In this document: positions 3,769 through 27,995 of the stretch, piece by piece
Layout: each line of letters opens with the position of its first letter
How positions within the stretch are numbered: the first letter of the stretch is position 1
Virus record (IMG/VR): IMGVR_UViG_3300008339_000244
Span: 1-34,344 of that record
Direction: 5' to 3' (one strand)
Origin: a virus
DNA length: 34,344 nucleotides
The notes under the pieces: model-generated
What the model was told of the DNA's origin: nothing
The model's input: the letters and a program-made list of their open reading frames with translations, nothing else
Database searches by the model: none
Position numbers and translations under genes: made by a program

Positions 3769-4020
3769 ATGGCTCTTCCTGATCCGACAACCCTAATCAC
3801 GCAAGCCCTCGAAGACCCGCAAAGCGTGTCGGCTGACGGGCTCTCCGTGTCCGCACGTTCGATGAACGACGTGATTAAGGGCTACCTATTCGGCGCGCAA
3901 GTGGCCGCGCTCGCTTCCCGGCGTGTTGGCATCCGACGAACGCAATTGATTCCGCAAGGGCCGTTTGTCGGTTCGGTCACCGCTGAACCGGGTGGCATCG
4001 TTCCTTACTTCGGGTGGTGA
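3769..4020 (+). CDS. Small head-tail joining (gpW-like) protein
   Basis: An 83-residue protein directly before the portal gene, where lambda-like phages place gpW. The centre (DGLSVSARSMNDVIKGYLFG) matches the gpW-like pattern of a short strand followed by a helix, and a basic region RRVGIRRTQLIPQGPFVG follows. gpW proteins plug the portal vertex after packaging. The start has a GAGGGA ribosome site about 8 bases upstream, and the stop overlaps the portal ATG (TGATG). The family call rests on size, pattern and position. Confidence 0.55.
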   Translation: MALPDPTTLITQALEDPQSVSADGLSVSARSMNDVIKGYLFGAQVAALASRRVGIRRTQLIPQGPFVGSVTAEPGGIVPYFGW

Positions 4021-6842
4021 TGTTCCAAGGATTGCGAAACTGGTTTGGCGGCGGAACGCCTGTTCCCAAACAGACGCGGGCTCAGACTGCGGCAACTCTT
4101 GCGATCCAGGCCAGATATGACAACGCAATTCCGACGCCGGAGAACATCCGCAATTGGATCAACGTCGATTACTACAGCGCGAAGACTGCAAACAACTACA
4201 TTGCTCGCCGACAATTGCGTATCAGGTCACGCTATGAAGTTGCCAACAATCCATTCCTGTTCGGCATCACTACTTCAAACGCTTCCGACCTTATTGGGAC
4301 CGGGCCGACCCTACAGATCCTTACTCGCGACAACCGCTACAACGACGAAGTTGAACAGGCTTGGAAAAGCTGGTGTGATTGCGTTGGATTCGTCGGCAAG
4401 CTCAACACCATCAAGCTCGCCAAAACCGTTGACGGAGAAGGGTTCATAGTTTTCAAAACCTATGAAGGACTTGATAATCCGGTCAAGCTCTACCCATGCG
4501 ACATCGAGGCCGATCAGGTTACAACCCCAATGCCTGCCAACTTGCAGGAGTATTGGGTGGACGGGATGCAGCTTGACCCGGTGACGGGGCAGCCGACGAA
4601 ATACGCGGTGCTCGCTCAACATCCCGGCGATATGTATTTCGAAAGCCCGCTCGATTTCAAGTGGGTGGATAAACAATTCGTCTGCCAGTGGTTCGTCAAG
4701 TTTCGACCCGGCCAGGTTCGCGGCATCCCGGTTTTCACGTCTTCGCTTGACCTGTTCAACGACATGCGCGGATTCCGCAATTCGGTCATGCAGAATGCTA
4801 AGCTGGTCGCGCAGCATACGGTCATGCTGGAGACAGAAGCGCCGGCCGATACGGGTGATGAAGACCTAGAGTATGAGCCGTTCAAACGGGTCCCAATCAA
4901 TAACGGGATGCAGACTGTTTTGCCCGCTGGCATGAAGGCCAGCACGCTTGACCCGAAACAGCCTGGCACATCTTATCAGATGTTCCAGATCCAGTGCATC
5001 ACCGAGGCTTGCCGACCGCTTTCTTACCCGGTCAATCTTGCTCTCGGAACGTCTCAGGACTTCAATTTCTCCTCTGCAAAATTGGATCATATCAACTATC
5101 GGCATTCGCTCACCGTGGAGCGAGAGGACTGCAATAAAACCATCCTGGCTCGCTCGTTTCAAGCATGGTACACCGAGGCCGTTTTATGCGGAGCGATCCG
5201 AGCCTATGACGGGATGAAGTTACCGCCGCTTGAATGGCACTGGCCAGGGTTCGAGCCGCTTGACGCACAGGCCGACGCGGACGCCGATCATTCGCGGCTC
5301 AGCAACGGCACTCTGACATGGCGGGAGTTTTGGGCTAAACGCGGGTTTGACTGGCGCGACGTGATGGCTCAGCAACAACGCGAACGCGAAGAGATTGATA
5401 CGCTCGGTTTGCAGTTCGGCGAACCGACCAAACAATCAGTAAGCGAAAAGGACGATGACGGCGAACCGCTGGGGGCCAGCAAGCCCGAACGCATCAAAGC
5501 GGCTGGCGAGTTCCGCGAAGAGGATCACCCGCGCGGTGATGACGGCAAGTTCGGTGAAGGTGGCGGCGGAAGCGGCAAGCCGACGCGCGAAGAATTCGAC
5601 AAGATTCAAGAGGATGCTGAATCGTATGAGGTAAGCACGGATGGCATTGATGATGTTCTGAACGAGATGATTGATAGCGGGGACTCCTCTAATCTTCCTG
5701 ATGCTGTTGACGCAGTTAAGAAATCAATCTTCGATAAGTTTTCAGCGGTGGCTAAGGAATACGAGAAATCTGGGGCAACCGACGACGAGATTGAACTGAT
5801 TGAGAAAGCGATTGAAAAGGGCAAGAAAGAAATCGACGCGGCGTCCAAGGTTGTTGAGGAAGCAAGTTCCGCGGTGTCGGACGCCATCGAGAATTACGAA
5901 TCGGCTAAGGCTGATATCGAGTCATTGGAAGACCCGGATGAGCCGGAAGAACCCGAACCGGAAAAGTACCCAGACGAGCCGGAAGAAGAGGGGAACGAAG
6001 ATTACGAGCAGGAACATGCCGAATGGGAAGAGGCGTGTAAGGAAGTTGACAAATTCAACGAGGAAGCATCTGAAAGGCATGACGAGGCAGTTGCTCAGTA
6101 CGAGGCCGAAATTGAGGACAACGAAAAGCAACGTGCCGAATGGAAGAAAGAAAAGCCGAAGCTGAAAAAGAAAATCAAAGAAGCAAAGACCGCTCTTGAA
6201 AAGGCCCATGACGATCTTGGCGAAGCGGTAACTGATGCGGCTTTTAATTGCCAGCAGGCCGCCGGGGAAGTGTGGGAAAAGGTAGATAGTCGATTCGACA
6301 AGTCTAAGGAATCGAAATCGTCTCGACGTGCGAGAATCCGCGCGTTCGACGAAAGCAAAGTCAAACGCGACGATGACGGTAAATTCGGTGAGGGTGGCGG
6401 TTCATCATCCTCAAGCAAGGCCGAAGCGAAGACGCAAAAGAAGCTGAACAAGCTCACGTCGCGTGCCAAAGAGCTACCGGCAAAGGTGGTTCGAAAGGCG
6501 GTGGGATTCGTCAAGAACACCTACGCCAAGCTGGAAAAGAAGTACGGAAAGACCGGGGCGCGGCTCGTCATGCTCGGCATGATTGCCGTATCGCCGGTTC
6601 CCGTTCCAGGCACGTCTTTACTCCCGATCGCACTAGCGGAAGGTGTGAAGCAGATTCGCAAGCTGCTCAATCTGTCGGCGGAAGAGGGCGAGACGCTCGA
6701 CGCCGAAACTCTGGCCGCGCTTATCCGAGAACACCTCGAAGAGTTCTACGCGGACAACGATGAAGACATGCCAGAGATCGACGACGACGAACTGTTGAAG
6801 GTGGCTGAATCGCTGGTAGAGGAGGCCGCTAATGTCTCGTAA
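4020..6842 (+). CDS. Lambda-type portal protein with long charged C-terminal extension
   Basis: The N-terminal 480 or so residues are a lambda-family portal: LRIRSRYEVANNPFLFGI, DLIGTGPTLQ, then LQEYWVDG and YAVLAQHPGD are typical. The portal forms the dodecameric DNA gate of the head. About 440 further residues are unusual. From residue 507 comes a linker DDGKFGEGGGGSGK, then a highly charged, Glu/Lys-rich coiled-coil stretch (including repeated PEEPEPEKYPDEPEE-type acidic runs), a second near-copy DDDGKFGEGGG at 784, and a final domain with a hydrophobic segment (ARLVMLGMIAVSPVPVPGTS) and an acidic tail. Ordinary portals of this family are about 500-550 residues. ATG 4020 is preferred over the in-frame GTGs at 4014 and 4017. 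The end overlaps the capsid gene by 11 bases. Confidence 0.88.
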   Translation: MFQGLRNWFGGGTPVPKQTRAQTAATLAIQARYDNAIPTPENIRNWINVDYYSAKTANNYIARRQLRIRSRYEVANNPFLFGITTSNASDLIGTGPTLQILTRDNRYNDEVEQAWKSWCDCVGFVGKLNTIKLAKTVDGEGFIVFKTYEGLDNPVKLYPCDIEADQVTTPMPANLQEYWVDGMQLDPVTGQPTKYAVLAQHPGDMYFESPLDFKWVDKQFVCQWFVKFRPGQVRGIPVFTSSLDLFNDMRGFRNSVMQNAKLVAQHTVMLETEAPADTGDEDLEYEPFKRVPINNGMQTVLPAGMKASTLDPKQPGTSYQMFQIQCITEACRPLSYPVNLALGTSQDFNFSSAKLDHINYRHSLTVEREDCNKTILARSFQAWYTEAVLCGAIRAYDGMKLPPLEWHWPGFEPLDAQADADADHSRLSNGTLTWREFWAKRGFDWRDVMAQQQREREEIDTLGLQFGEPTKQSVSEKDDDGEPLGASKPERIKAAGEFREEDHPRGDDGKFGEGGGGSGKPTREEFDKIQEDAESYEVSTDGIDDVLNEMIDSGDSSNLPDAVDAVKKSIFDKFSAVAKEYEKSGATDDEIELIEKAIEKGKKEIDAASKVVEEASSAVSDAIENYESAKADIESLEDPDEPEEPEPEKYPDEPEEEGNEDYEQEHAEWEEACKEVDKFNEEASERHDEAVAQYEAEIEDNEKQRAEWKKEKPKLKKKIKEAKTALEKAHDDLGEAVTDAAFNCQQAAGEVWEKVDSRFDKSKESKSSRRARIRAFDESKVKRDDDGKFGEGGGSSSSSKAEAKTQKKLNKLTSRAKELPAKVVRKAVGFVKNTYAKLEKKYGKTGARLVMLGMIAVSPVPVPGTSLLPIALAEGVKQIRKLLNLSAEEGETLDAETLAALIREHLEEFYADNDEDMPEIDDDELLKVAESLVEEAANVS

Positions 6843-9219
6843 ACGACGCAGGCACCAACCGAAAATTATCGCCAGCAAACCAAGGCCGAAAAGCCCTGAT
6901 TCTGCTCGCGAGTTCACCATATCCGCGGCGGGCGTGGCGTGTGCGATCCAAGCAGAGATCGGCGTTGGCACCGAGAAGAAGTTGGCACGCTTCGAGGGTA
7001 ACGCTTACACCGGCGCACCGATGACGCCAGAGGGCTGGAAAATGCCCGTGGTGGTCGATCTGGACGGCGTGATTATTCCGTCCCAGCATCGGCCAGCACT
7101 TCGCCAACACGATCACAACCAGATTGTCGGGCACACGGACACCGTGAGCGTTGACGCTTCCGGAATCAAAGTCGGCGGCGTGTTCAGCGGCGAGAAATCG
7201 CATTCGAACAAAGTCACCGAGCCGGCCGCCAACGGGTTTAAGTGGCAGTTGTCAATTGGTGCAACCCCCAACGACGACAAGATGGAATTTCTGCCGAGTG
7301 GTGAAGAGGCGGAAGTCAACGGGCGCACGGTGCGCGGGCCGCTCAATATCAGTCGTGAAACAGTGATTGGCGAGATCAGTTTTGTTCCTCTGGGCGCGGA
7401 TGGGATGACCTCCGCAACCGTTTCCGCTTCCCAACGAAAGGCTACGAAAATGAACGTGAAGAAAATGCTGCTCGCATCGGGCAAGTACTCCGATGAAGAC
7501 ATCGAAAAGATGGACGAGAGCGAGGCGAAGGCCGCGCTGAAAAAGTGCATGGCCGCCTCCGACGATGAGCCGGACGGCGACGAGGAGAAGAAGAAAGCTG
7601 AGGCTGCCGAAGACGATGACTTGGAGATGGAAGACGAAAAGGAAAAGAAGAAGGCCGAAGCCGCTCGCAAGAGTCGAATTGCGGCCAATCGTCGCGCCGA
7701 GGCCGACGATCTGCGCCGGGCCGATAGCATCCGCGAAGTGGTGCGGAACTACGGCATCACGACGACCGAGATCACGGCAAGCGGAAAAACGCTAACCGTG
7801 AATCTGGCCGCTCACGCCATCGAAAACGGCTGGAGCAAGGAGAAGACCGAACTCGTCGCACTGAAGGCCGCGCGGCCGGGCGCCGGCGTTGGCGTTCCGG
7901 GTGGGCTGGCCTATTCGACCAGCAACCCGCAACTCACGGACGCCGTGCTGGAGGCCGCTCTGCTCGAAGCGTGCGGCAACTTCCGCCTGGACGATTCCGA
8001 TTTCTACGCCAAGGGCGACGACGGCCAACGTCGAACGACCGCCCGCGAAGAAAAGCGCATCCGGGCTGAACTTGACGCTCGCTACACGGACAAAGTGCGC
8101 CAGACGGCTCACACACTGTTCAAAGGCCGAATCGGCTTCCAGCAGGCCTTGACCACGATTGCCGCCGCGAACGGATACCGCGGAAGGGAAGTGATTAGCG
8201 ACCCGGCAAGCTGGGGTGAAGTGGCTTCCGCACTTCAAGCCTCTTCGCAGATCCGTGCCGACGCCAGCACGGTGACGATCAACAACGTGCTTGCGAACGT
8301 GCAAAACAAGTTCATCCTGCAAGGCTATCTCTACACCGAGCAATCGTTCATGGAGATTGCCCAGATTCTTCCGGTGAAGGATTTCAAGCCGACAAAGAGC
8401 GTTTCGTTGTTCGGCGACTTTGTGTTCAAGGAACTCGCGCCATCCGGCGAGATCCAGAACGCGACGATGGGCGACCAGGCGTTCGCGAATCAGGCCGGGC
8501 TTGTGGCTCGAATGCTGACAATGCCGCTGCAATACATCATCAACGATGACCTCGGAATCCTCGGTCAAGTTCCAGCCATGTTGGGCCGTGGTTGGGGGCT
8601 CAAGGTCAACAGCATCGTGTGGACGCCGTTCATGAGCACGGCGAGCAAAGACGACGGCGGCTCGACCGCTTTCTGGGCCGCAACTCACACGGTTACCGGC
8701 CAGCAGGGTAACAGCAACTACAGCAGCGGGGCGGGCTCCGCGCTGGGATCGGCTGGCCTTCAGGCCGCGAAACTCCTGTTTGATAACCAGGTTGACCCGG
8801 CTGGACAACCCCTCGGAGTCGAGCCGGAAATTCTTCTTTACCCGCCGGCGTTGGATGTGACCGCGATGGAATTGATGAAGTCGCGGGACATCATCATGGG
8901 CGGGCTGGCTTCGACCAGTTCGGCCAGCAAGCAACCCTCGACAAACATCTGGGGCAATCGGTTCAAGCCGGTCATGAGCCGCTACCTGTCAAATTCGACT
9001 TTCACCGGCTACTCGGCGACAGCGTGGTACTTGCTCGCCAATCCGTCGATTCTTCCCACGGTGCAGATCGCGGCATGGAACGGCAATATGGTTCCGACCG
9101 TGCAAACGGCCGGCCAGGACTGGCAGTTCAACACGCTCGGAATCTCCATGCGTGGATTCGGCGGCGTGGGCGCGACAGTCCAGAACTATCGCGGTGGCGT
9201 CAAGTCGGCCGGCTCGTAA
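6832..9219 (+). CDS. Prohead protease-scaffold-major capsid fusion protein
   Basis: This 795-residue protein joins three functions usually split over two or three genes. Residues 20-205 are a prohead serine protease: RQHDHNQIVGH (candidate His93/95) and KWQLSIGATP (candidate Ser141), then ETVIGEISFVPLGA. Residues 210-290 are a strongly charged Glu/Lys/Ala helix, as expected for a scaffolding domain. Residues 300-795 are a Mu-gpT-like or HK97-fold major capsid protein, with QGYLYTEQSFMEIAQILPV and INDDLGILGQVPAMLGRGWG. The protease would cut itself and the scaffold away during head maturation. No stop or frameshift separates the parts. It starts 11 bases inside the portal gene, preceded by GAGGAGG. 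No separate capsid gene is present. Confidence 0.88.
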   Translation: MSRKRRRHQPKIIASKPRPKSPDSAREFTISAAGVACAIQAEIGVGTEKKLARFEGNAYTGAPMTPEGWKMPVVVDLDGVIIPSQHRPALRQHDHNQIVGHTDTVSVDASGIKVGGVFSGEKSHSNKVTEPAANGFKWQLSIGATPNDDKMEFLPSGEEAEVNGRTVRGPLNISRETVIGEISFVPLGADGMTSATVSASQRKATKMNVKKMLLASGKYSDEDIEKMDESEAKAALKKCMAASDDEPDGDEEKKKAEAAEDDDLEMEDEKEKKKAEAARKSRIAANRRAEADDLRRADSIREVVRNYGITTTEITASGKTLTVNLAAHAIENGWSKEKTELVALKAARPGAGVGVPGGLAYSTSNPQLTDAVLEAALLEACGNFRLDDSDFYAKGDDGQRRTTAREEKRIRAELDARYTDKVRQTAHTLFKGRIGFQQALTTIAAANGYRGREVISDPASWGEVASALQASSQIRADASTVTINNVLANVQNKFILQGYLYTEQSFMEIAQILPVKDFKPTKSVSLFGDFVFKELAPSGEIQNATMGDQAFANQAGLVARMLTMPLQYIINDDLGILGQVPAMLGRGWGLKVNSIVWTPFMSTASKDDGGSTAFWAATHTVTGQQGNSNYSSGAGSALGSAGLQAAKLLFDNQVDPAGQPLGVEPEILLYPPALDVTAMELMKSRDIIMGGLASTSSASKQPSTNIWGNRFKPVMSRYLSNSTFTGYSATAWYLLANPSILPTVQIAAWNGNMVPTVQTAGQDWQFNTLGISMRGFGGVGATVQNYRGGVKSAGS

Positions 9220-9311: not shown

Positions 9312-10244
9312 ATGGCTCAGACCCCAGCGAATTACGTCTTCCCGGGAGCAAGTCTCCCGTACACCGGAGCGGGGACCGAAGTTCCCGGCCAGGTGATTGA
9401 AGTCGGCACGGTTCCGATGATTGTGGAAACCGTTGACCCCAACGCGGCGACCGCGATGAATCTGTCATCGGGCGGCGTTTGGAACGTCCCTAAGGACACC
9501 AGCACATTTTCCGCCGGCGATGCGGTCTATTGGGACAGCAACGGTTCTCCCGTGACTGGCACGGCATCCAGTGGCGCGGCAACCAGCACGGCCAGCGGAA
9601 ACAATCTGATGGGGCTTGTGACCCCTCTTGGCGCGGCATTGACCGGGGATTCCTACGTTCAGGTGCTGCTCACGGCCGCGAAGCGTACGACGACGATTGC
9701 CGGCAGCGTGACGGCGGATGATATCACGGGCTCGGATAGCTCGCTCGGCATCGCGGGCAAGGCTGGCAACAACGGTGCGGGTGGCGCTATCGTCATCGCT
9801 GGTGGTGCGGGCAATAACGCATCGGCCGGCGGTGCCTTGACGCTTCGCGGTGGCGCTGGTGACGGAGCGGCTGATGGTGCTATCGCCATTGGCGATGCCA
9901 ACACGGTCAGCGTCACGTTCGGAGTCAATCCCCGTATCCCGGTTGCTGCCGTGGTTCCCGGTGGTACTGCCATCGGAAACGCCAATGCTCTGAGCGAGGG
10001 GTTCAACCTCGTGACGGGTGCGGACAACACGGCGGCCGTTATCCTTCCGGCAAGCGTGGCCGGCAAGGTGGTGCATGTGAAATCGAACACGTCTGGAAAA
10101 ATCCTGATCGTGTTCCCGCCAGTGTCGAGTGCCATCAACGGGGCGTCAGCCAACGCCGCTTACAATCACGCGAATTTGGCAATCAGGACTTACTACTGCT
10201 ACAACTCGACGTTGTGGCTCACCGATCCGGAAACACCGACCTAA
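9312..10244 (+). CDS. Capsid decoration protein with DUF2190-like N-terminus
   Basis: A 310-residue protein placed right after the major capsid gene. Residues 1-125 follow the DUF2190 (capsid cement) pattern: NYVFPGASLPYTGAGTEVPG, VWNVPKDTSTFSAGDAVYWD, NNLMGLVTPLGAALTGDSYVQVLL (in parts). A low-complexity Gly/Ala/Asn-rich stretch follows (about 145-190, with GGAGNNASAGGA), and then a beta-rich C-terminal domain ending in a Tyr-rich strand. Such proteins stabilise the mature head and may display binding domains. AGGAG lies 9 bases before the ATG. The upstream 92 bases hold no gene. The stop overlaps the next start (TAATG). Confidence 0.75.
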   Translation: MAQTPANYVFPGASLPYTGAGTEVPGQVIEVGTVPMIVETVDPNAATAMNLSSGGVWNVPKDTSTFSAGDAVYWDSNGSPVTGTASSGAATSTASGNNLMGLVTPLGAALTGDSYVQVLLTAAKRTTTIAGSVTADDITGSDSSLGIAGKAGNNGAGGAIVIAGGAGNNASAGGALTLRGGAGDGAADGAIAIGDANTVSVTFGVNPRIPVAAVVPGGTAIGNANALSEGFNLVTGADNTAAVILPASVAGKVVHVKSNTSGKILIVFPPVSSAINGASANAAYNHANLAIRTYYCYNSTLWLTDPETPT

Positions 10245-11623
10245 TGCAAACGACAATCGAACGAAATGCCGCGCGACGTAAAGCCGTCGCGTCGGCTCTG
10301 ACAATCGACGGCTGGCTCTCGGAGCGTGAGGCTTGCGAGCTTTACGATCTCGCGCGAGACGCTAAGGGGCCGATTATTGAAATCGGCTCATGGAAAGGCC
10401 GGTCAACGGCTGCGCTTGCTCTCGGTTCGATGGACGGCGGGAAACATCCCGTCTATGCCATTGACTCGTTTGGAGGCGTTGGCGTTGCTCGATTTACCGA
10501 TGGCGGTGAAAAGCCGACCAAACCGACGACCCCCGAGCAACTTCGAGCCAACCTTGACGCGGTGGGAGTCAACGGGCTCGTGAAGATCATTCCGTTCCCA
10601 TCACGGGAAGCGGTTGACAAAGTTCCAAATTGTTCTGTGCTATTCGTGGACGGCGACCATTCTTATGAAGGAGCCGCGGGAGATATTGACGCATACTTCC
10701 CGAAGGTGCTACCTGGTGGAACGATCATGCTCCATGACGTTACCGAGGGCGACCCCGGCGTTGTGCAAGCCGTCGATGAAAAGATCATGACCCGGCCGCA
10801 CGAATACAGCGTCAAGCGTCGGGTTGACTCGGCAATCGTTGTCAAGAAACAGGCCAGTCAGAAGCTCGAAATTGTTCTTGGATTCCCTGGCCGACCGAGT
10901 GAATTTGGAGCGGTTCGCGGGTTGCTCCATGCGAGCGTTGGCATTCATTCCGTCCATGTGCTCAACTCCCGCAATGGCTGGGATGACTTCAATTTTCTCT
11001 GGGCCGAGGCGTTGAATCTGATGGAGCAAGGGCGAGCTACTCATTTCGCCATGCTCCATACGGACATTTGCCCAGCGCCAGGATGGATTGATACGCTTGT
11101 TGAGGAAATGGATACGCACGGTGCGGACCTCGTTTCAACCATCATGCCAATCAAGGATACGCGGGGCGTGACATCGACCGGAATCGGTGACGCTCGCGAT
11201 CCGTGGAAAGCATTTCGACGCTACACCGTTCGCGAAGTTTTGGCGATGCCTGACACATTCAGCATTGCCGACACGGAATACGCGAACGACGCCACGAAAC
11301 ACATGCTGCACAATACCGGGTGCTGGGTCACTGACCTACGCAACCCGGCATTCAGGGCGGTTGATGAAAATGGTTTTCTTCGATGCTGGTTTGATTTCCC
11401 GACTCGGATTGCCCGCAACGCTGAAGGGAAATGGCAGAATGCCCGCGAATCAGAGGACTGGTTTTTCTCCAGAAAGATTGCGGAATTCGGCTTGAAGACG
11501 TTCGCAACCCGCAAGGTTACGGCTACCCATGTAGGCGATGCTCACTACACGAATTTCACCGAGTGGGGAGATTACAAGAACGGCGACGAGGACACCGCGC
11601 CGATCTGGAGGCCAAAGGGTTGA
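10244..11623 (+). CDS. Methyltransferase-glycosyltransferase fusion protein
   Basis: A 459-residue two-domain enzyme. Residues 20-205 are a class I SAM methyltransferase of the Methyltransf_24 type: motif I IIEIGSWKGRS (44-54), an acidic strand VYAIDSFGG, LFVDGDHSYEG (123-133) and GGTIMLHD (148-155). Residues 210-459 look like a GT-A glycosyltransferase: EIVLGFPGRPSEFGAVRGLL at the start, FAMLHTDICPAPGWIDTL (258-275) with an HTD in place of the usual DxD, and an ADLVSTIMP strand. Both domains could modify a sugar on the virion or host surface. Its place between decoration and connector genes suggests virion glycan modification, which is inference. The start is the ATG at 10244, overlapping the previous stop. 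Confidence 0.75.
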   Translation: MQTTIERNAARRKAVASALTIDGWLSEREACELYDLARDAKGPIIEIGSWKGRSTAALALGSMDGGKHPVYAIDSFGGVGVARFTDGGEKPTKPTTPEQLRANLDAVGVNGLVKIIPFPSREAVDKVPNCSVLFVDGDHSYEGAAGDIDAYFPKVLPGGTIMLHDVTEGDPGVVQAVDEKIMTRPHEYSVKRRVDSAIVVKKQASQKLEIVLGFPGRPSEFGAVRGLLHASVGIHSVHVLNSRNGWDDFNFLWAEALNLMEQGRATHFAMLHTDICPAPGWIDTLVEEMDTHGADLVSTIMPIKDTRGVTSTGIGDARDPWKAFRRYTVREVLAMPDTFSIADTEYANDATKHMLHNTGCWVTDLRNPAFRAVDENGFLRCWFDFPTRIARNAEGKWQNARESEDWFFSRKIAEFGLKTFATRKVTATHVGDAHYTNFTEWGDYKNGDEDTAPIWRPKG

Positions 11624-20775: not shown

Positions 20776-20982
20776 ATGAGCGATATCGTGTTCTGGGTCT
20801 TCAGCGTGATGCTCTTGCTTAACTTCCTAGCCTACGTTCATACGGCGCGACTGGCTCGAAAATACCGGCGCGAATGTGAGCAGTACAACGAGCGGCGAGA
20901 GATCGAGCTTGATGCGTTTTCAGAGGCGATCCTGGAAGAAATCAATAACAAAGTTGGGAAGAAAACAACCCCTTGGCAATAA
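20776..20982 (+). CDS. Small membrane protein with coiled-coil tail (spanin-like topology)
   Basis: The start is ATG 20776 with GGAGGTG eight bases upstream. 68 residues: an N-terminal membrane helix (IVFWVFSVMLLLNFLAYVHT), then a highly charged helix (ARKYRRECEQYNERREIELD). This N-in, helix-out layout resembles inner-membrane spanins, but no lipoprotein partner is evident, so the comparison is topological only. It sits within the chain of small membrane proteins. Confidence 0.5.
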   Translation: MSDIVFWVFSVMLLLNFLAYVHTARLARKYRRECEQYNERREIELDAFSEAILEEINNKVGKKTTPWQ

Positions 20983-20984
20983 CC

Positions 20985-21266
20985 ATGAGCGACTTCTTTA
21001 TTCTCTTCATCGTGTTTTGGGTGGCAATCGCGTTACTGGTTGCATGGATAGTCAGGAGCGCACCAATTAAGGCAGCGATACCGAAATGCTCATGTGGCCG
21101 TAAAATGGTAGTCGTTGGCCTGTTGCCCGATGACTCGCAAGGCCCGCAACGAGTTTTCCAAGTGTGGGTGTGTCCAACGATGGAACACGCGGGCCAAGCA
21201 GTTACTGAGGCGGGCACGGTCAAACCAGACGAATGGGAAAGAAAGAGGGACCAATGGCAGCAATAA
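20985..21266 (+). CDS. Membrane-anchored protein with Cys motif
   Basis: 93 residues from ATG 20985, two bases after the previous stop. A membrane helix (FFILFIVFWVAIALLVAWIV) is followed by PKCSCGRKMVVVG and, later, VWVCP, which could form a small metal-binding knuckle. The rest is polar. It overlaps the next gene by 13 bases. The function is unknown. Confidence 0.5.
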   Translation: MSDFFILFIVFWVAIALLVAWIVRSAPIKAAIPKCSCGRKMVVVGLLPDDSQGPQRVFQVWVCPTMEHAGQAVTEAGTVKPDEWERKRDQWQQ

Positions 21267-21499
21267 AAGAGATTAAAGCGGCGGTATGGACTGTGCGATT
21301 TTCACACAAGGCCAATATGCCGAACGGGCACGCATATCGTACCAATGTTGCCGCCCATGTTCTCACAAACTGCCCCCATAAAGCGATATTGTTGGCCACG
21401 GATGGCAAGGACGATGTACTCGTAACAAACGTGACCAGACAAACGGCAGCGAACTGCGCTCTGATTGACCAAGACTTATTTGTTGAAAGGGACCAATGA
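21254..21499 (+). CDS. Small hypothetical protein
   Basis: 81 residues. ATG 21254 is chosen because AGAGGGA lies just upstream; an earlier in-frame ATG at 21233 lacks a good ribosome site. The protein is soluble, with strands AVWTVRFSHKANMP and KAILLATDGKDDVLVTN. The stop overlaps the next ATG (ATGA). The ribosome site GGGACCA is shared with the next gene, a small local repeat. Confidence 0.45.
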   Translation: MAAIKEIKAAVWTVRFSHKANMPNGHAYRTNVAAHVLTNCPHKAILLATDGKDDVLVTNVTRQTAANCALIDQDLFVERDQ

Positions 21500-22317
21500 A
21501 AAAAGTATTGATTGCATTGCTGTTGTTCGCCGGTCTGGCGAGCGGTCAAACGCTCCCACTGGAGATTTCAGGCGGTAACGCCAAAGTCGTCCAGGTTGAT
21601 CGGGTGGTCATCGTCAAGGACGACGTGACGCTCGTCTCCAGCTTTCCGTTCACCGTCAAGGCGCCTCCAGGTGGGGCAATCTATTCGTGGCAGTTCCCGT
21701 CAACGGTGACCGCTACCGACATGGGCGAAACGCTTGAAGTCACGGACGCGCCAAAGGGTGGCCTGACGATCAGCGTCAAAATTGTGGTCGTCGATTTCAA
21801 GGCCCAGAAGTTGACTACGAAATTCGGCAAGGTGTCATTCGCCGTGGGCGATGTTCCACCGGGGCCGGGGCCGGGGCCGAAGCCGCCCGAACCGAAGCCT
21901 CCCGAACCGAAGCCGCCTGAACCGGACATTCCTTCTACAGCACCGATTCCGGCACCAGGATTCCGGTTCATAGTGTTCTACGAATCCGACCCGATGGACA
22001 TGGCTCATCAACGATTGACGCCTCAGCAATTGTCAATCACTACTTCCGCTTTGATTCGTGATTGGGCGGATGCGAACTGCGCAAAAGGTCCAGACGGCAA
22101 GACCCCGGAAGGGCGATGTTGGGACTGGGATGTGGACACGACGAGCGTGAGTGAGCTATGGCGGAATGCCGTGACCCGAAGCCAGCTAAAGAGCGGCGGC
22201 AACAAGCAACCGTGGATTCTCATTTCCAACGGTGACAAGAAAACAGGCTACGAGGGGCCGCTACCGGCCAACGTCGCGGACACGCTCGACCTACTCAAGA
22301 AGTACAAGGGGAACTGA
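21496..22317 (+). CDS. Secreted protein with Pro-rich linker
   Basis: 273 residues. A clear signal peptide (MKKVLIALLLFAGLASG) precedes a beta-sandwich domain (about 20-115) with PPGGAIYSWQFPSTVTATD. A linker with three KPPEP units follows, and then a C-terminal alpha/beta domain (160-273; FRFIVFYESDPMDMA and PWILISNGDK) of thioredoxin-like appearance but without CxxC. This architecture is common among planctomycete extracellular proteins, but that is inference. The C-terminal domain has only two Cys (in DANCAKG and GRCWDW). It is one base from the protease gene and may work with it. Precise function unknown. Confidence 0.6.
   Translation: MKKVLIALLLFAGLASGQTLPLEISGGNAKVVQVDRVVIVKDDVTLVSSFPFTVKAPPGGAIYSWQFPSTVTATDMGETLEVTDAPKGGLTISVKIVVVDFKAQKLTTKFGKVSFAVGDVPPGPGPGPKPPEPKPPEPKPPEPDIPSTAPIPAPGFRFIVFYESDPMDMAHQRLTPQQLSITTSALIRDWADANCAKGPDGKTPEGRCWDWDVDTTSVSELWRNAVTRSQLKSGGNKQPWILISNGDKKTGYEGPLPANVADTLDLLKKYKGN
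21880..21924 (+). repeat. Three 15-bp tandem repeats encoding KPPEP units
   Basis: AAGCCGCCCGAACCG and two near-identical copies (one or two third-base changes) run in tandem from 21880 to 21924. A GGGGCC-type run stands just before at 21861-21879. Together they encode the PGPGPGP and KPPEP linker of the secreted protein. Such repeats can gain or lose units by slippage and so vary linker length. Confidence 0.85.
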
Positions 22318-22318
22318 C

Positions 22319-23182
22319 ATGGCGCTGGATTACTACAAGGGCACGATCCCGATTCTCGACGACAACCCGGCGAACGAAGCTGCGGTGATGGCGTTGGCCT
22401 TCCCTGGCGCAAAGGGGCAATACGGCCATCGCGATGTTGGGTTCGGAGCCATTCCGCGAGATTACGGTATCACCCCGCAACAGACTTTCGGCTCCCCTCC
22501 GAGTGGCATCAAGCTGTATGATCCCAGCGAGTACGATGCCCTCTACGATGAAGAGGAGGCCACGTTATCGAGCTTGGAGCATCTATACCTCCGTGGCGGC
22601 AAACCGGCATTCGTCAACCTTGACCAGAACGGACACGGTGACTGCTGGGCGTTCTCGACTGGTCAAGCGATCATGTTTGACCGGCTCAAGCAGGGGCTTC
22701 CGCTTGTCCGCCTGAATCCTCATGCGACAGCGGTTATCCTCAACCAACTCAACGGTGGTTGGTGTGGGTTGAGCGCCAAGTCGGCTCGCGAACTCGGCAT
22801 GGCGGAAGACGGCTCCGGCGAAGGCCAGTGGCCGGGGCACTCTCGCAGCCGGTCTTATGATACTCCTGCCCTTCGTGCTTCGATGGCGAAATACAAGGTG
22901 CAAGAGGAATGGGTGGACCTTACCAAACAGGTCTACGATCAGAACCTCACCAACGCGATGCTGGCCACCTGTCACTTCCTGAAGATTCCGACGCCTACCG
23001 ATTACAGTTGGTGGGGGCATTCGGTCGTGTCCATCCGCCACGTTCGCATTGAGAAGGGCCGTTGGGGTCGGTTGATTCTCAACTCATGGGCGAATTGGGG
23101 ACGCTTCGGATTGTCCGTCATCGAAGGCTCGAAGCTCAACACGATGGGAGCCCTGGCCATCCGTATGACGAAGGCCGCGTAA
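22319..23182 (+). CDS. Papain-like (C1-type) cysteine protease
   Basis: 287 residues from ATG 22319. The papain set is complete: Gln103 (oxyanion hole) lies six residues before Cys109 in GHGDCWAFSTG, the His is His234 in WWGHSVVSIRHV, and Asn255 with Trp257 stands in LILNSWANWGRFG. This order and spacing match peptidase family C1. No signal peptide is seen on this start. An N-terminal stretch of about 90 residues could be a propeptide or an inhibitory region. C1 proteases are unusual in phages. Its place beside holin-like and secreted genes suggests a role in lysis or cutting host-surface protein, which is inference. A virion-borne protease is the alternative. Confidence 0.82.
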   Translation: MALDYYKGTIPILDDNPANEAAVMALAFPGAKGQYGHRDVGFGAIPRDYGITPQQTFGSPPSGIKLYDPSEYDALYDEEEATLSSLEHLYLRGGKPAFVNLDQNGHGDCWAFSTGQAIMFDRLKQGLPLVRLNPHATAVILNQLNGGWCGLSAKSARELGMAEDGSGEGQWPGHSRSRSYDTPALRASMAKYKVQEEWVDLTKQVYDQNLTNAMLATCHFLKIPTPTDYSWWGHSVVSIRHVRIEKGRWGRLILNSWANWGRFGLSVIEGSKLNTMGALAIRMTKAA

Positions 23183-23215: not shown

Positions 23216-23548
23216 ATGGCATTGCGAGAAAGACCAACCGAGATTGCCCCGGAAGCGTGGGGCATCGTTACCAAAGTGGTGCGTGGGAACATCGGCGACA
23301 TTGACCGGAACTACGCGATCCACGTCGGCGAAGAGTGTGCCAGCTTTGCAGCGGGCCAAGCGTTCCCCGATCCGAAAGACGGCTCCATCCCCGTTATGAG
23401 CGATGCCACGCTGTGCTCGGACCTGAGCAACGAAGAGTTCCTTCAGTGCTGCGACGACTTAGCGGTGGGCAAAGTCAAGGGTCTGATCCCGTGGGCCACC
23501 ATCGCCAAGAAGATTCTTGAAGCGTTGCTCCCGCTACTCATCAAGTAA
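23216..23548 (+). CDS. Hypothetical protein after C1 protease
   Basis: 110 residues, with CTGGAGA eleven bases before the ATG. It has four Cys residues (EECASF, TLCSDL, QCCDDL) and a hydrophobic C-terminal helix (PWATIAKKILEALLPLLIK) that could be membrane-active. Its position right after the protease suggests a partner, such as an inhibitor or membrane-acting helper; this is inference. A weak GGGCA-CGGA-TGCCC hairpin follows at about 23572-23586. Confidence 0.5.
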   Translation: MALRERPTEIAPEAWGIVTKVVRGNIGDIDRNYAIHVGEECASFAAGQAFPDPKDGSIPVMSDATLCSDLSNEEFLQCCDDLAVGKVKGLIPWATIAKKILEALLPLLIK

Positions 23549-23607: not shown

Positions 23608-24039
23608 ATGCGTGCGTTCCTTTCCTGTCTGGCGTGCCTGCTGCTTGTGGGCCAATCGTCCGCCGCGATCAATGACCCGCCGCCGTCTCCGTTCCCGCCA
23701 GCGCCTGCCGAAAAAACAATCACGCTGATGGTGGGCTGTGAGTCCGGCAAATGCACTCCGGTCAAGGTGCCGGTGGGTTCGCTGCTCACGACGAGCGGCG
23801 GAATCATTGTTCCGTTGCGAACCGAGAACGGCGTAACGATCTACCGCGACCACGAAACCTACAAGGGGACCGGCATCTGCCAGGGCCGCAATTGTGCCGG
23901 GGCCGCGACATGCGGAGCTGGTGGCAATTGTGCGTCCTGCTTGTCGTGTGCCGGGGCTCAGCAATCGGCTGGAAGCGTTCGGTATCAGCGGATGCCGGTA
24001 GGCTCGGTTCAAAGCTCATGCCCGACATGCCCGAAGTGA
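23608..24039 (+). CDS. Secreted Cys-rich protein
   Basis: 143 residues with a signal peptide (FLSCLACLLLVGQSSA), a Pro-rich spacer (DPPPSPFPPAPAE), a small beta domain and a Cys-dense tail (GICQGRNCAGAATCGAGGNC, ASCLSCAG, SCPTCPK). Disulfides or metal binding are likely in the tail. AAGGAGT precedes the ATG. The style is that of small extracellular planctomycete proteins. No family is recognised. Confidence 0.55.
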   Translation: MRAFLSCLACLLLVGQSSAAINDPPPSPFPPAPAEKTITLMVGCESGKCTPVKVPVGSLLTTSGGIIVPLRTENGVTIYRDHETYKGTGICQGRNCAGAATCGAGGNCASCLSCAGAQQSAGSVRYQRMPVGSVQSSCPTCPK

Positions 24040-24082: not shown

Positions 24083-24448
24083 ATGATTTTGTTAGCCGAC
24101 GTTACGCTGACGTGGCAAGAAGCCGTTTTGGTCCTGCTGGCAACGCTCGGGGCGGGGACGTTTCCGAGCTTGAACGAATGGCGCAAGAAGCTATTCGGCA
24201 CGGTTTGGCAGCGGCTGGCAGCGATTGTATTTCAGTTGCTGGGGCACGAGAAGCGAATATCTCTGATCGAAGAGGCGATGAAAATTTGGCTCGAGATGAT
24301 GCCGCCGGAACAGAAGCAGCGCGTCGAGGCGTTGTTGAATCAAGCGGCACAACGTGGCGAAATGTCGGCAGAGGATACGTTAGACCGTGCCCTGATCGAG
24401 CTGGCGAAAAAACATCCACCGCCCGAACAATCTGGGAAGCAATCATGA
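24083..24448 (+). CDS. Membrane protein with helical tail (holin-like candidate)
   Basis: 121 residues. An N-terminal hydrophobic segment (EAVLVLLATLGAGTFPSL) is followed by a long amphipathic, charged helical tail (EKRISLIEEAMKIWLEMM, EALLNQAAQRGEMS). AAGGAG precedes ATG 24083. A longer frame starting at 24058 overlaps it but looks random in composition. With one membrane helix and a cytoplasmic tail it could be a class III-like holin or an anchor. It is followed by a coupled 35-residue membrane peptide. Function inferred only from position. Confidence 0.5.
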   Translation: MILLADVTLTWQEAVLVLLATLGAGTFPSLNEWRKKLFGTVWQRLAAIVFQLLGHEKRISLIEEAMKIWLEMMPPEQKQRVEALLNQAAQRGEMSAEDTLDRALIELAKKHPPPEQSGKQS

Positions 24449-27776: not shown

Positions 27777-27995
27777 ATGCTTGTGTTAGCAAGAAAAACT
27801 GGCGAGAAAGTGATGCTCCGCGACTGTGACGGCAAACTGATCTGCGAAGTGTCAGTTACGGAAATTGACGGGCGCGTTATTCGGCTCGGGTTCGAGGCCG
27901 ACAAGAGCGTACAGATTTTCCGCGGTGAGGTAGACGAGCGGTTGTACCCAGCGGCGGCCACGATTCCGCTTGACACTGCCCTCGCACTGGAATAG
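27777..27995 (+). CDS. csrA: CsrA/RsmA-family RNA-binding regulator
   Basis: 72 residues. The start MLVLARKTGEKVML matches the first strand of CsrA (MLxLxRxxGE), ICEVSVTEIDGRVIRLGFEA the middle strands, and VQIFRGEVDERL the RNA-binding strand with Arg49 in the place of the key CsrA Arg. The length is typical (about 60-75). CsrA dimers bind GGA in mRNA leaders and block or stabilise translation. A phage-borne copy could redirect host carbon metabolism or control late phage messages (inference). AAGGA lies seven to ten bases before the ATG. The 213 bases that follow, to 28208, hold an ATGCCGT/ACGGCAT hairpin at 28003-28020, a smaller CGGCC/GGCCG hairpin near 28053 and no clear gene. Confidence 0.88.
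   Translation: MLVLARKTGEKVMLRDCDGKLICEVSVTEIDGRVIRLGFEADKSVQIFRGEVDERLYPAAATIPLDTALALE

Follow-up and report, generated by a model that had tools for sequence, protein, structure and literature searches.

At positions 22319..23182 (plus strand) of the 34,344-nucleotide stretch of viral DNA analysed here, which is referred to below as the window, lies an ORF with an ATG start that codes for a predicted papain-family (C1) cysteine peptidase of 287 residues. Its catalytic residues are Gln103 (codon at 22625), Cys109 (22643..22645), His234 (23018..23020) and Asn255 (23081..23083). No signal peptide was found in it; the region up to about residue 95 (22319..22603) is prosegment-like, as judged by alignment of the model and by conserved motifs. 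A single base separates the papain ATG from the stop codon of the preceding gene (21496..22317, plus strand), which codes for a 273-residue protein, called the partner below, with a signal peptide, a beta region modelled with low confidence, a Pro-rich spacer and a C-terminal thioredoxin-fold domain. Upstream of the partner, on the same strand, come a small protein with an N-terminal membrane helix and a charged coiled-coil-like tail (20776..20982; no family match), which its sequence makes a candidate for a holin- or spanin-like function, a second small protein for which the TM scan also places a membrane helix at the N-terminus (20985..21266; a holin-like candidate), and a small protein identified by its position between the latter and the partner (21254..21499). 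Downstream of the papain, again on the plus strand, are a 110-residue protein with a short hydrophobic C-terminus (23216..23548), a secreted, Cys-containing protein with a signal peptide (23608..24039) and a 121-residue protein with an N-terminal hydrophobic segment, a coiled-coil-like tail and no family match (24083..24448). Several relatives have a comparable short protein after the papain (homology of the 110-residue protein to the corresponding L014 protein is not significant), and secreted Cys-rich proteins are often found downstream of it.

A single-sequence search with the window papain reaches no Pfam or PHROG family, touches cathepsin K at only E=0.08, and yields no close relatives in IMG/VR, in 50,697 phage records or in 84,980 genomes. 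The way into the family led instead through the window's capsid protein to its capsid relatives, one of which (G008) has a papain that is 36% identical to that of the window, retains the catalytic residues and lies above the cut-off of Pfam Peptidase_C1 (PF00112), whereas the window protein alone lies below it. The profile made from these two sequences matches cathepsin K at E=1e-7 and found 26 viral loci; a 25-sequence family profile matches chymopapain at E=3e-11 and cathepsin K at E=4e-10, and Gln103, Cys109, His234 and Asn255 are invariant in all 25 aligned phage papains. The AlphaFold2 model of the window papain (mean pLDDT 83.7, pTM 0.87) matches xylellain with a Z-score of 19.9 (rmsd 3.0 over 214 residues) and procathepsins B, H, K and L with Z about 19. 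The alignment with the procathepsins starts at residue 15, which is why the N-terminus looks like a prosegment; PRD and ESEW motifs within the N-terminal region are conserved across the family. Judged by its sequence and its modelled fold, the ORF encodes a true papain-family peptidase, and the sequence-only reading, which had picked out the Gln, Cys, His and Asn of the C1 proteases, is borne out on the residues as well as on the family by the family profile, the Pfam match of the relative and the match of the model.

Each of the 20 records examined contains exactly one papain. A second, distant subfamily is found in G001, L114 and others: the L114 protein matches xylellain at 1.4e-8, and the G001 protein has Gly in place of the catalytic Asn. 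Two capsid relatives that lack the window's subfamily have, after their tail genes, another papain. In G004 it is a membrane-anchored protein (hhalign 5e-5, with the triad aligned); in G001 it is the subfamily-2 papain together with a partner. Other papain subfamilies thus fill the same place in these phages. Papain-like motifs were also seen by eye in G007 and G014, but hhalign gave them no support and they are excluded from the counts; the papain-like proteins of G004 and G014 have no matches among isolated phages. The G016 copy (L045 10004-10831) contains one TGA within the matched stretch, just before the likely start codon.

The partner is the main addition to the sequence-only reading, the prosegment-like N-terminus and the replacement of one papain subfamily by others being the further ones. 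One gene family precedes the papain in 26 of 27 viral loci (gene calling is unclear at the exception, L057). Among phage contigs picked for the papain only, the partner is present in 17 of 17 and the next most common gene family in 4 of 17. A partner-like gene also lies upstream of the subfamily-2 papain in all nine loci fetched, six of the nine being called by HMM and the others by eye, from an export segment and a thioredoxin-like domain. In about half of the loci the gap between partner and papain is -4 to +10 bases; in some an HNH-like or other ORF intervenes, and in L050 (4466-5014) and L136 (5193-5813) this is a homing-endonuclease-like ORF. The papain is therefore one half of a two-gene module of fixed gene order, with a membrane-targeted thioredoxin-fold protein as the other half, and this module has spread through otherwise unrelated phages.

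Across the family, the partners carry either a signal peptide or a membrane segment; a beta region is frequent, and there is a Pro-rich spacer as well as a C-terminal domain that is conserved (PWxxISNGKTGFEGPLP...LLKKYG). The C-terminal domain is confidently modelled with a thioredoxin fold; its structure matches, at a modest Z of about 7 (7.3 for TrxP), are nearly all thioredoxins or thioredoxin fusions. The partner differs from thioredoxins in being tethered by a Pro-rich arm and in lacking CXXC, which is absent throughout the partner alignment, so that it is probably not redox-active. The partner has a conserved Gly-Gly end, which was weighed as a possible site of cleavage by the papain; that idea was dropped, since several partners lack it and a Gly-Gly end can encode the GGAGG ribosome site of the next gene.

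The surroundings of the module, with their small membrane proteins, resemble a lysis cassette. In 24 of 28 loci at least one of the two genes before the partner encodes a small protein with a membrane helix, where background frequency would predict 23%; because the loci are partly related, the significance of this excess is indicative only. One of these proteins is a PHROG holin at 3e-9; for most of the small membrane proteins of the loci PHROG holin matches are weak or absent. In G001, G234 and L136 the papain is followed immediately by the gene of a trypsin-like protease that has H, D and S and is secreted or linked to the membrane (Trypsin_2 at 3e-12 in G001); when the other loci were scanned generally for trypsin and CXXC motifs, no further trypsin-like neighbours appeared. 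The G234 protease (L118 15036-16169, minus strand) is fused to a CXXC-containing thioredoxin domain, and in L046 (2470-3000) and L071 (11164-11568) the papain is followed by an exported thioredoxin-like protein whose motif is CGPC or CEPC. The papain lies directly downstream of tail genes in the window and in several relatives. The position of the module relative to head and tail genes nevertheless varies: it is found between the scaffold and capsid genes in L066, on the strand opposite to terminase in L056 and at the edge of the element, next to an integrase-like gene, in the prophages L074 and L127.

Tailed phages, as is taught, lyse bacteria with a holin and a peptidoglycan hydrolase. No muralytic Pfam family is present in the three forward frames of the window, which do encode portal, capsid, terminase, methyltransferases, CsrA and cement protein, so that the absence of a usual endolysin that was remarked upon in the sequence-only reading holds. 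The window has no terminal repeat and may for that reason be incomplete, but the result is the same in three relatives that are probably complete, since they have exact terminal repeats: G022 (33.0 kb, repeat of 127 bases), G029 (51.5 kb, 126) and G021 (67.4 kb, 118). Pfam searches of called ORFs of 110-400 residues in G022 and G029 (all 21 of 21 families listed) and of called ORFs in G021 (25 of 27 families listed) show Peptidase_C1 and no lysozyme, amidase, transglycosylase, CHAP or NlpC. PF01510, PF00959 and PF01464 are found in none of 32 records, and the papain itself has no lysozyme, amidase or transglycosylase match. Profile searches of this kind would miss a new muralytic fold. In addition, a 151-residue ORF of L114 (2242-2697), which shares a cassette with partner and papain, looks by eye like a permuted NlpC/P60 protein (YiiX-like), and some of these phages may therefore use a muralytic enzyme too.

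Genome matches to the papain are found in a Planctomycetaceae MAG, a Gemmataceae MAG, one further bacterial genome and a scaffold labelled 'Alphaproteobacteria'. In the GTDB grouping all the matched genomes except this last scaffold fall in one family: chromosomal copies are concentrated in the Gemmataceae, with 7 of 95 genomes matching. By comparison, matches number 2 of 392 in a phylum-wide draw and 0 of 369 in the phylum of G040. The partner-papain pair lies within multi-megabase contigs in G822, G870 and G234, and Gemmataceae (Planctomycetota) are the supported hosts of the module-bearing phages. The chromosomal papain of G862 (L128 8977-9711, minus strand), with neither a partner nor phage genes nearby, is possibly a relic. 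The scaffold binned as Alphaproteobacteria (L073; VBAH01000059.1, 199 kb) has the module together with genes that end in the HVRGCWALDLLLGKE motif, which L067 shows as well; it probably comes from a planctomycete or a planctomycete phage and was misbinned. A purely proteinaceous wall of the host cannot safely be assumed, because some planctomycetes have peptidoglycan, the anammox planctomycetes being a case in point (PMC4432595). Genomes of isolated Gemmata phages were not available according to an earlier paper (PMC5707555), and release without lysis is known from one deep-sea planctomycete phage (PMC10945688).

With the C1 peptidases of MEROPS the phage papain shares its fold, the Gln-Cys-His-Asn set and the prosegment-like N-terminus; it differs in the PRD and ESEW motifs of its own, its thioredoxin-fold partner and its phage encoding. 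The nearest solved structure, xylellain (PDB 3ois), is about 20% identical. Proteins labelled 'Peptidase C1A' in BFVD, from uncultured Caudovirales phages, match its predicted fold (best E 1.3e-8, TM 0.64-0.69) at 14-18% identity and have no described module or function. CHAP and NlpC/P60 enzymes and the pseudomurein endoisopeptidases PeiW and PeiP of archaeal viruses are papain-fold enzymes that cut wall peptides (PMC10318531, PMC2989375), and the likeness extends to a cysteine peptidase encoded in a phage genome at a cassette-like location and to a host-specific enzyme adapted to the wall (PMC10318531, PMC2989375, PMC4592898). These endolysins cut peptidoglycan or pseudomurein, whereas the phage papain is C1 by sequence, and it has an exported partner where they have a wall-binding domain. 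In the part of the literature that was searched, no C1 papain is described as an endolysin.

A lysis-gene-like position in phages with no recognisable wall-cutting enzyme suggests that these phages may break out with a protease. That the papain opens the envelope, as the sequence-only reading had proposed, is the best-supported interpretation in the light of the module, its cassette setting, the trypsin-like proteases beside it in three phages, the other papains of relatives, the lack of muralytic Pfam families and the Gemmataceae copies. Against it count the NlpC/P60-like ORF of L114, which makes a protease-only mechanism less certain, the moron-like variation in genomic position, the scarcity of family matches among the holin candidates, the lack of a partner beside at least one chromosomal copy (G862), the Gly that replaces the catalytic Asn in G001 and the presence of peptidoglycan in some planctomycetes. 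We judge it somewhat probable that partner and papain constitute an envelope-disrupting, protease-led lysis module of Gemmataceae phages. A fuller version, in which these phages lyse by proteolysis, with a holin-released C1 papain and a periplasmic thioredoxin-fold tether replacing the muralytic endolysin and a trypsin-like helper assisting in some, is offered more tentatively, as a reading that may well not hold in all its parts. Synthesis of the papain would take place in the cytoplasm, where, lacking a signal peptide and bearing a prosegment-like N-terminus, it would stay as a zymogen-like C1 peptidase until the small holin-like proteins breach the inner membrane and give it access to the periplasm. 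The partner, exported or membrane-anchored, would there hold out its thioredoxin-fold domain on a Pro-rich arm and might position or activate the papain, which would cleave protein parts of the envelope and let the virions out. Release at lysis, the protein nature of the substrate, the role of the partner and zymogen control are all inferred.

The variability of its genomic position, its presence in prophages and the fact that otherwise unrelated phages have only partner and papain in common are also what one would expect of a moron. The pair might then serve host takeover, with the exported partner and the protease cleaving a host protein involved in the envelope or in defence (superinfection exclusion being one example of the purpose), and with lysis itself left to an unrecognised muralytic enzyme. 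That explanation is unlikely: it does not sit well with a papain that is single-copy in every papain-containing record and accompanied by small membrane proteins, with probably complete genomes in which no other lysis enzyme is recognised, or with the other papain-like ORFs that follow the tail genes in relatives lacking the window's subfamily. Since it lies just downstream of tail genes in the window and in several of the relatives, the papain could also be part of the virion, packaged in it or bound to the tail, and break down a surface layer of protein during entry. A virion protein would have no need of the exported or membrane-anchored partner with which the papain is paired everywhere, and the position relative to tail genes is not constant; we consider an entry protease quite unlikely.

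There is precedent for the idea that the papain is a C1-fold hydrolase of stem peptides or of protein linked to peptidoglycan, which would make it a muralytic endolysin whose catalytic domain is new: CHAP, NlpC/P60 and PeiW/PeiP put the papain fold to use on wall peptides (PMC10318531, PMC2989375), and peptidoglycan is present in some planctomycetes (PMC4432595). Sequence and fold point rather to the C1 proteases, prosegment included, and trypsin-like proteases adjoin the papain in three phages, so that a hydrolase of peptidoglycan peptides strikes us as improbable. Phages do need processing proteases, and a place in head or tail maturation was accordingly considered for the papain. The window's capsid protein (6832-9219; major head and protease protein in PHROG) has an S78-like protease domain of its own, a fusion common to all capsid relatives of the window phage, and a separate S78 protease is present in the G022/G029 gene set. 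The papain lies 13 kb from the capsid gene, beside a partner that is exported. A maturation protease is very improbable indeed, and the packaged head protein that would have told against the sequence-only reading is not seen here, the head protease being a domain distinct from the papain.

If the preferred reading, a protease-led lysis module, is correct, its use by unrelated phages of one host group would reveal what the integrity of the Gemmataceae envelope depends on, and a phage enzyme could be used to test the long-standing question of what planctomycete walls are made of. The module would further supply a means of opening planctomycete cells and a marker by which planctomycete phages could be recognised.

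Several other genes of the window deserve mention. The portal protein (4014-6842) has 942 residues and is extended at its C-terminus by a long acidic stretch that resembles repeats; the portals of relatives are about 490 residues long. Between the capsid and tail genes, ORF 10214-11623 fuses a methyltransferase domain to a glycosyltransferase-like region, and the C-terminal half of this fusion is shared with G002. At 27777-27995 the phage encodes a CsrA-like global regulator (Pfam E 8e-11).
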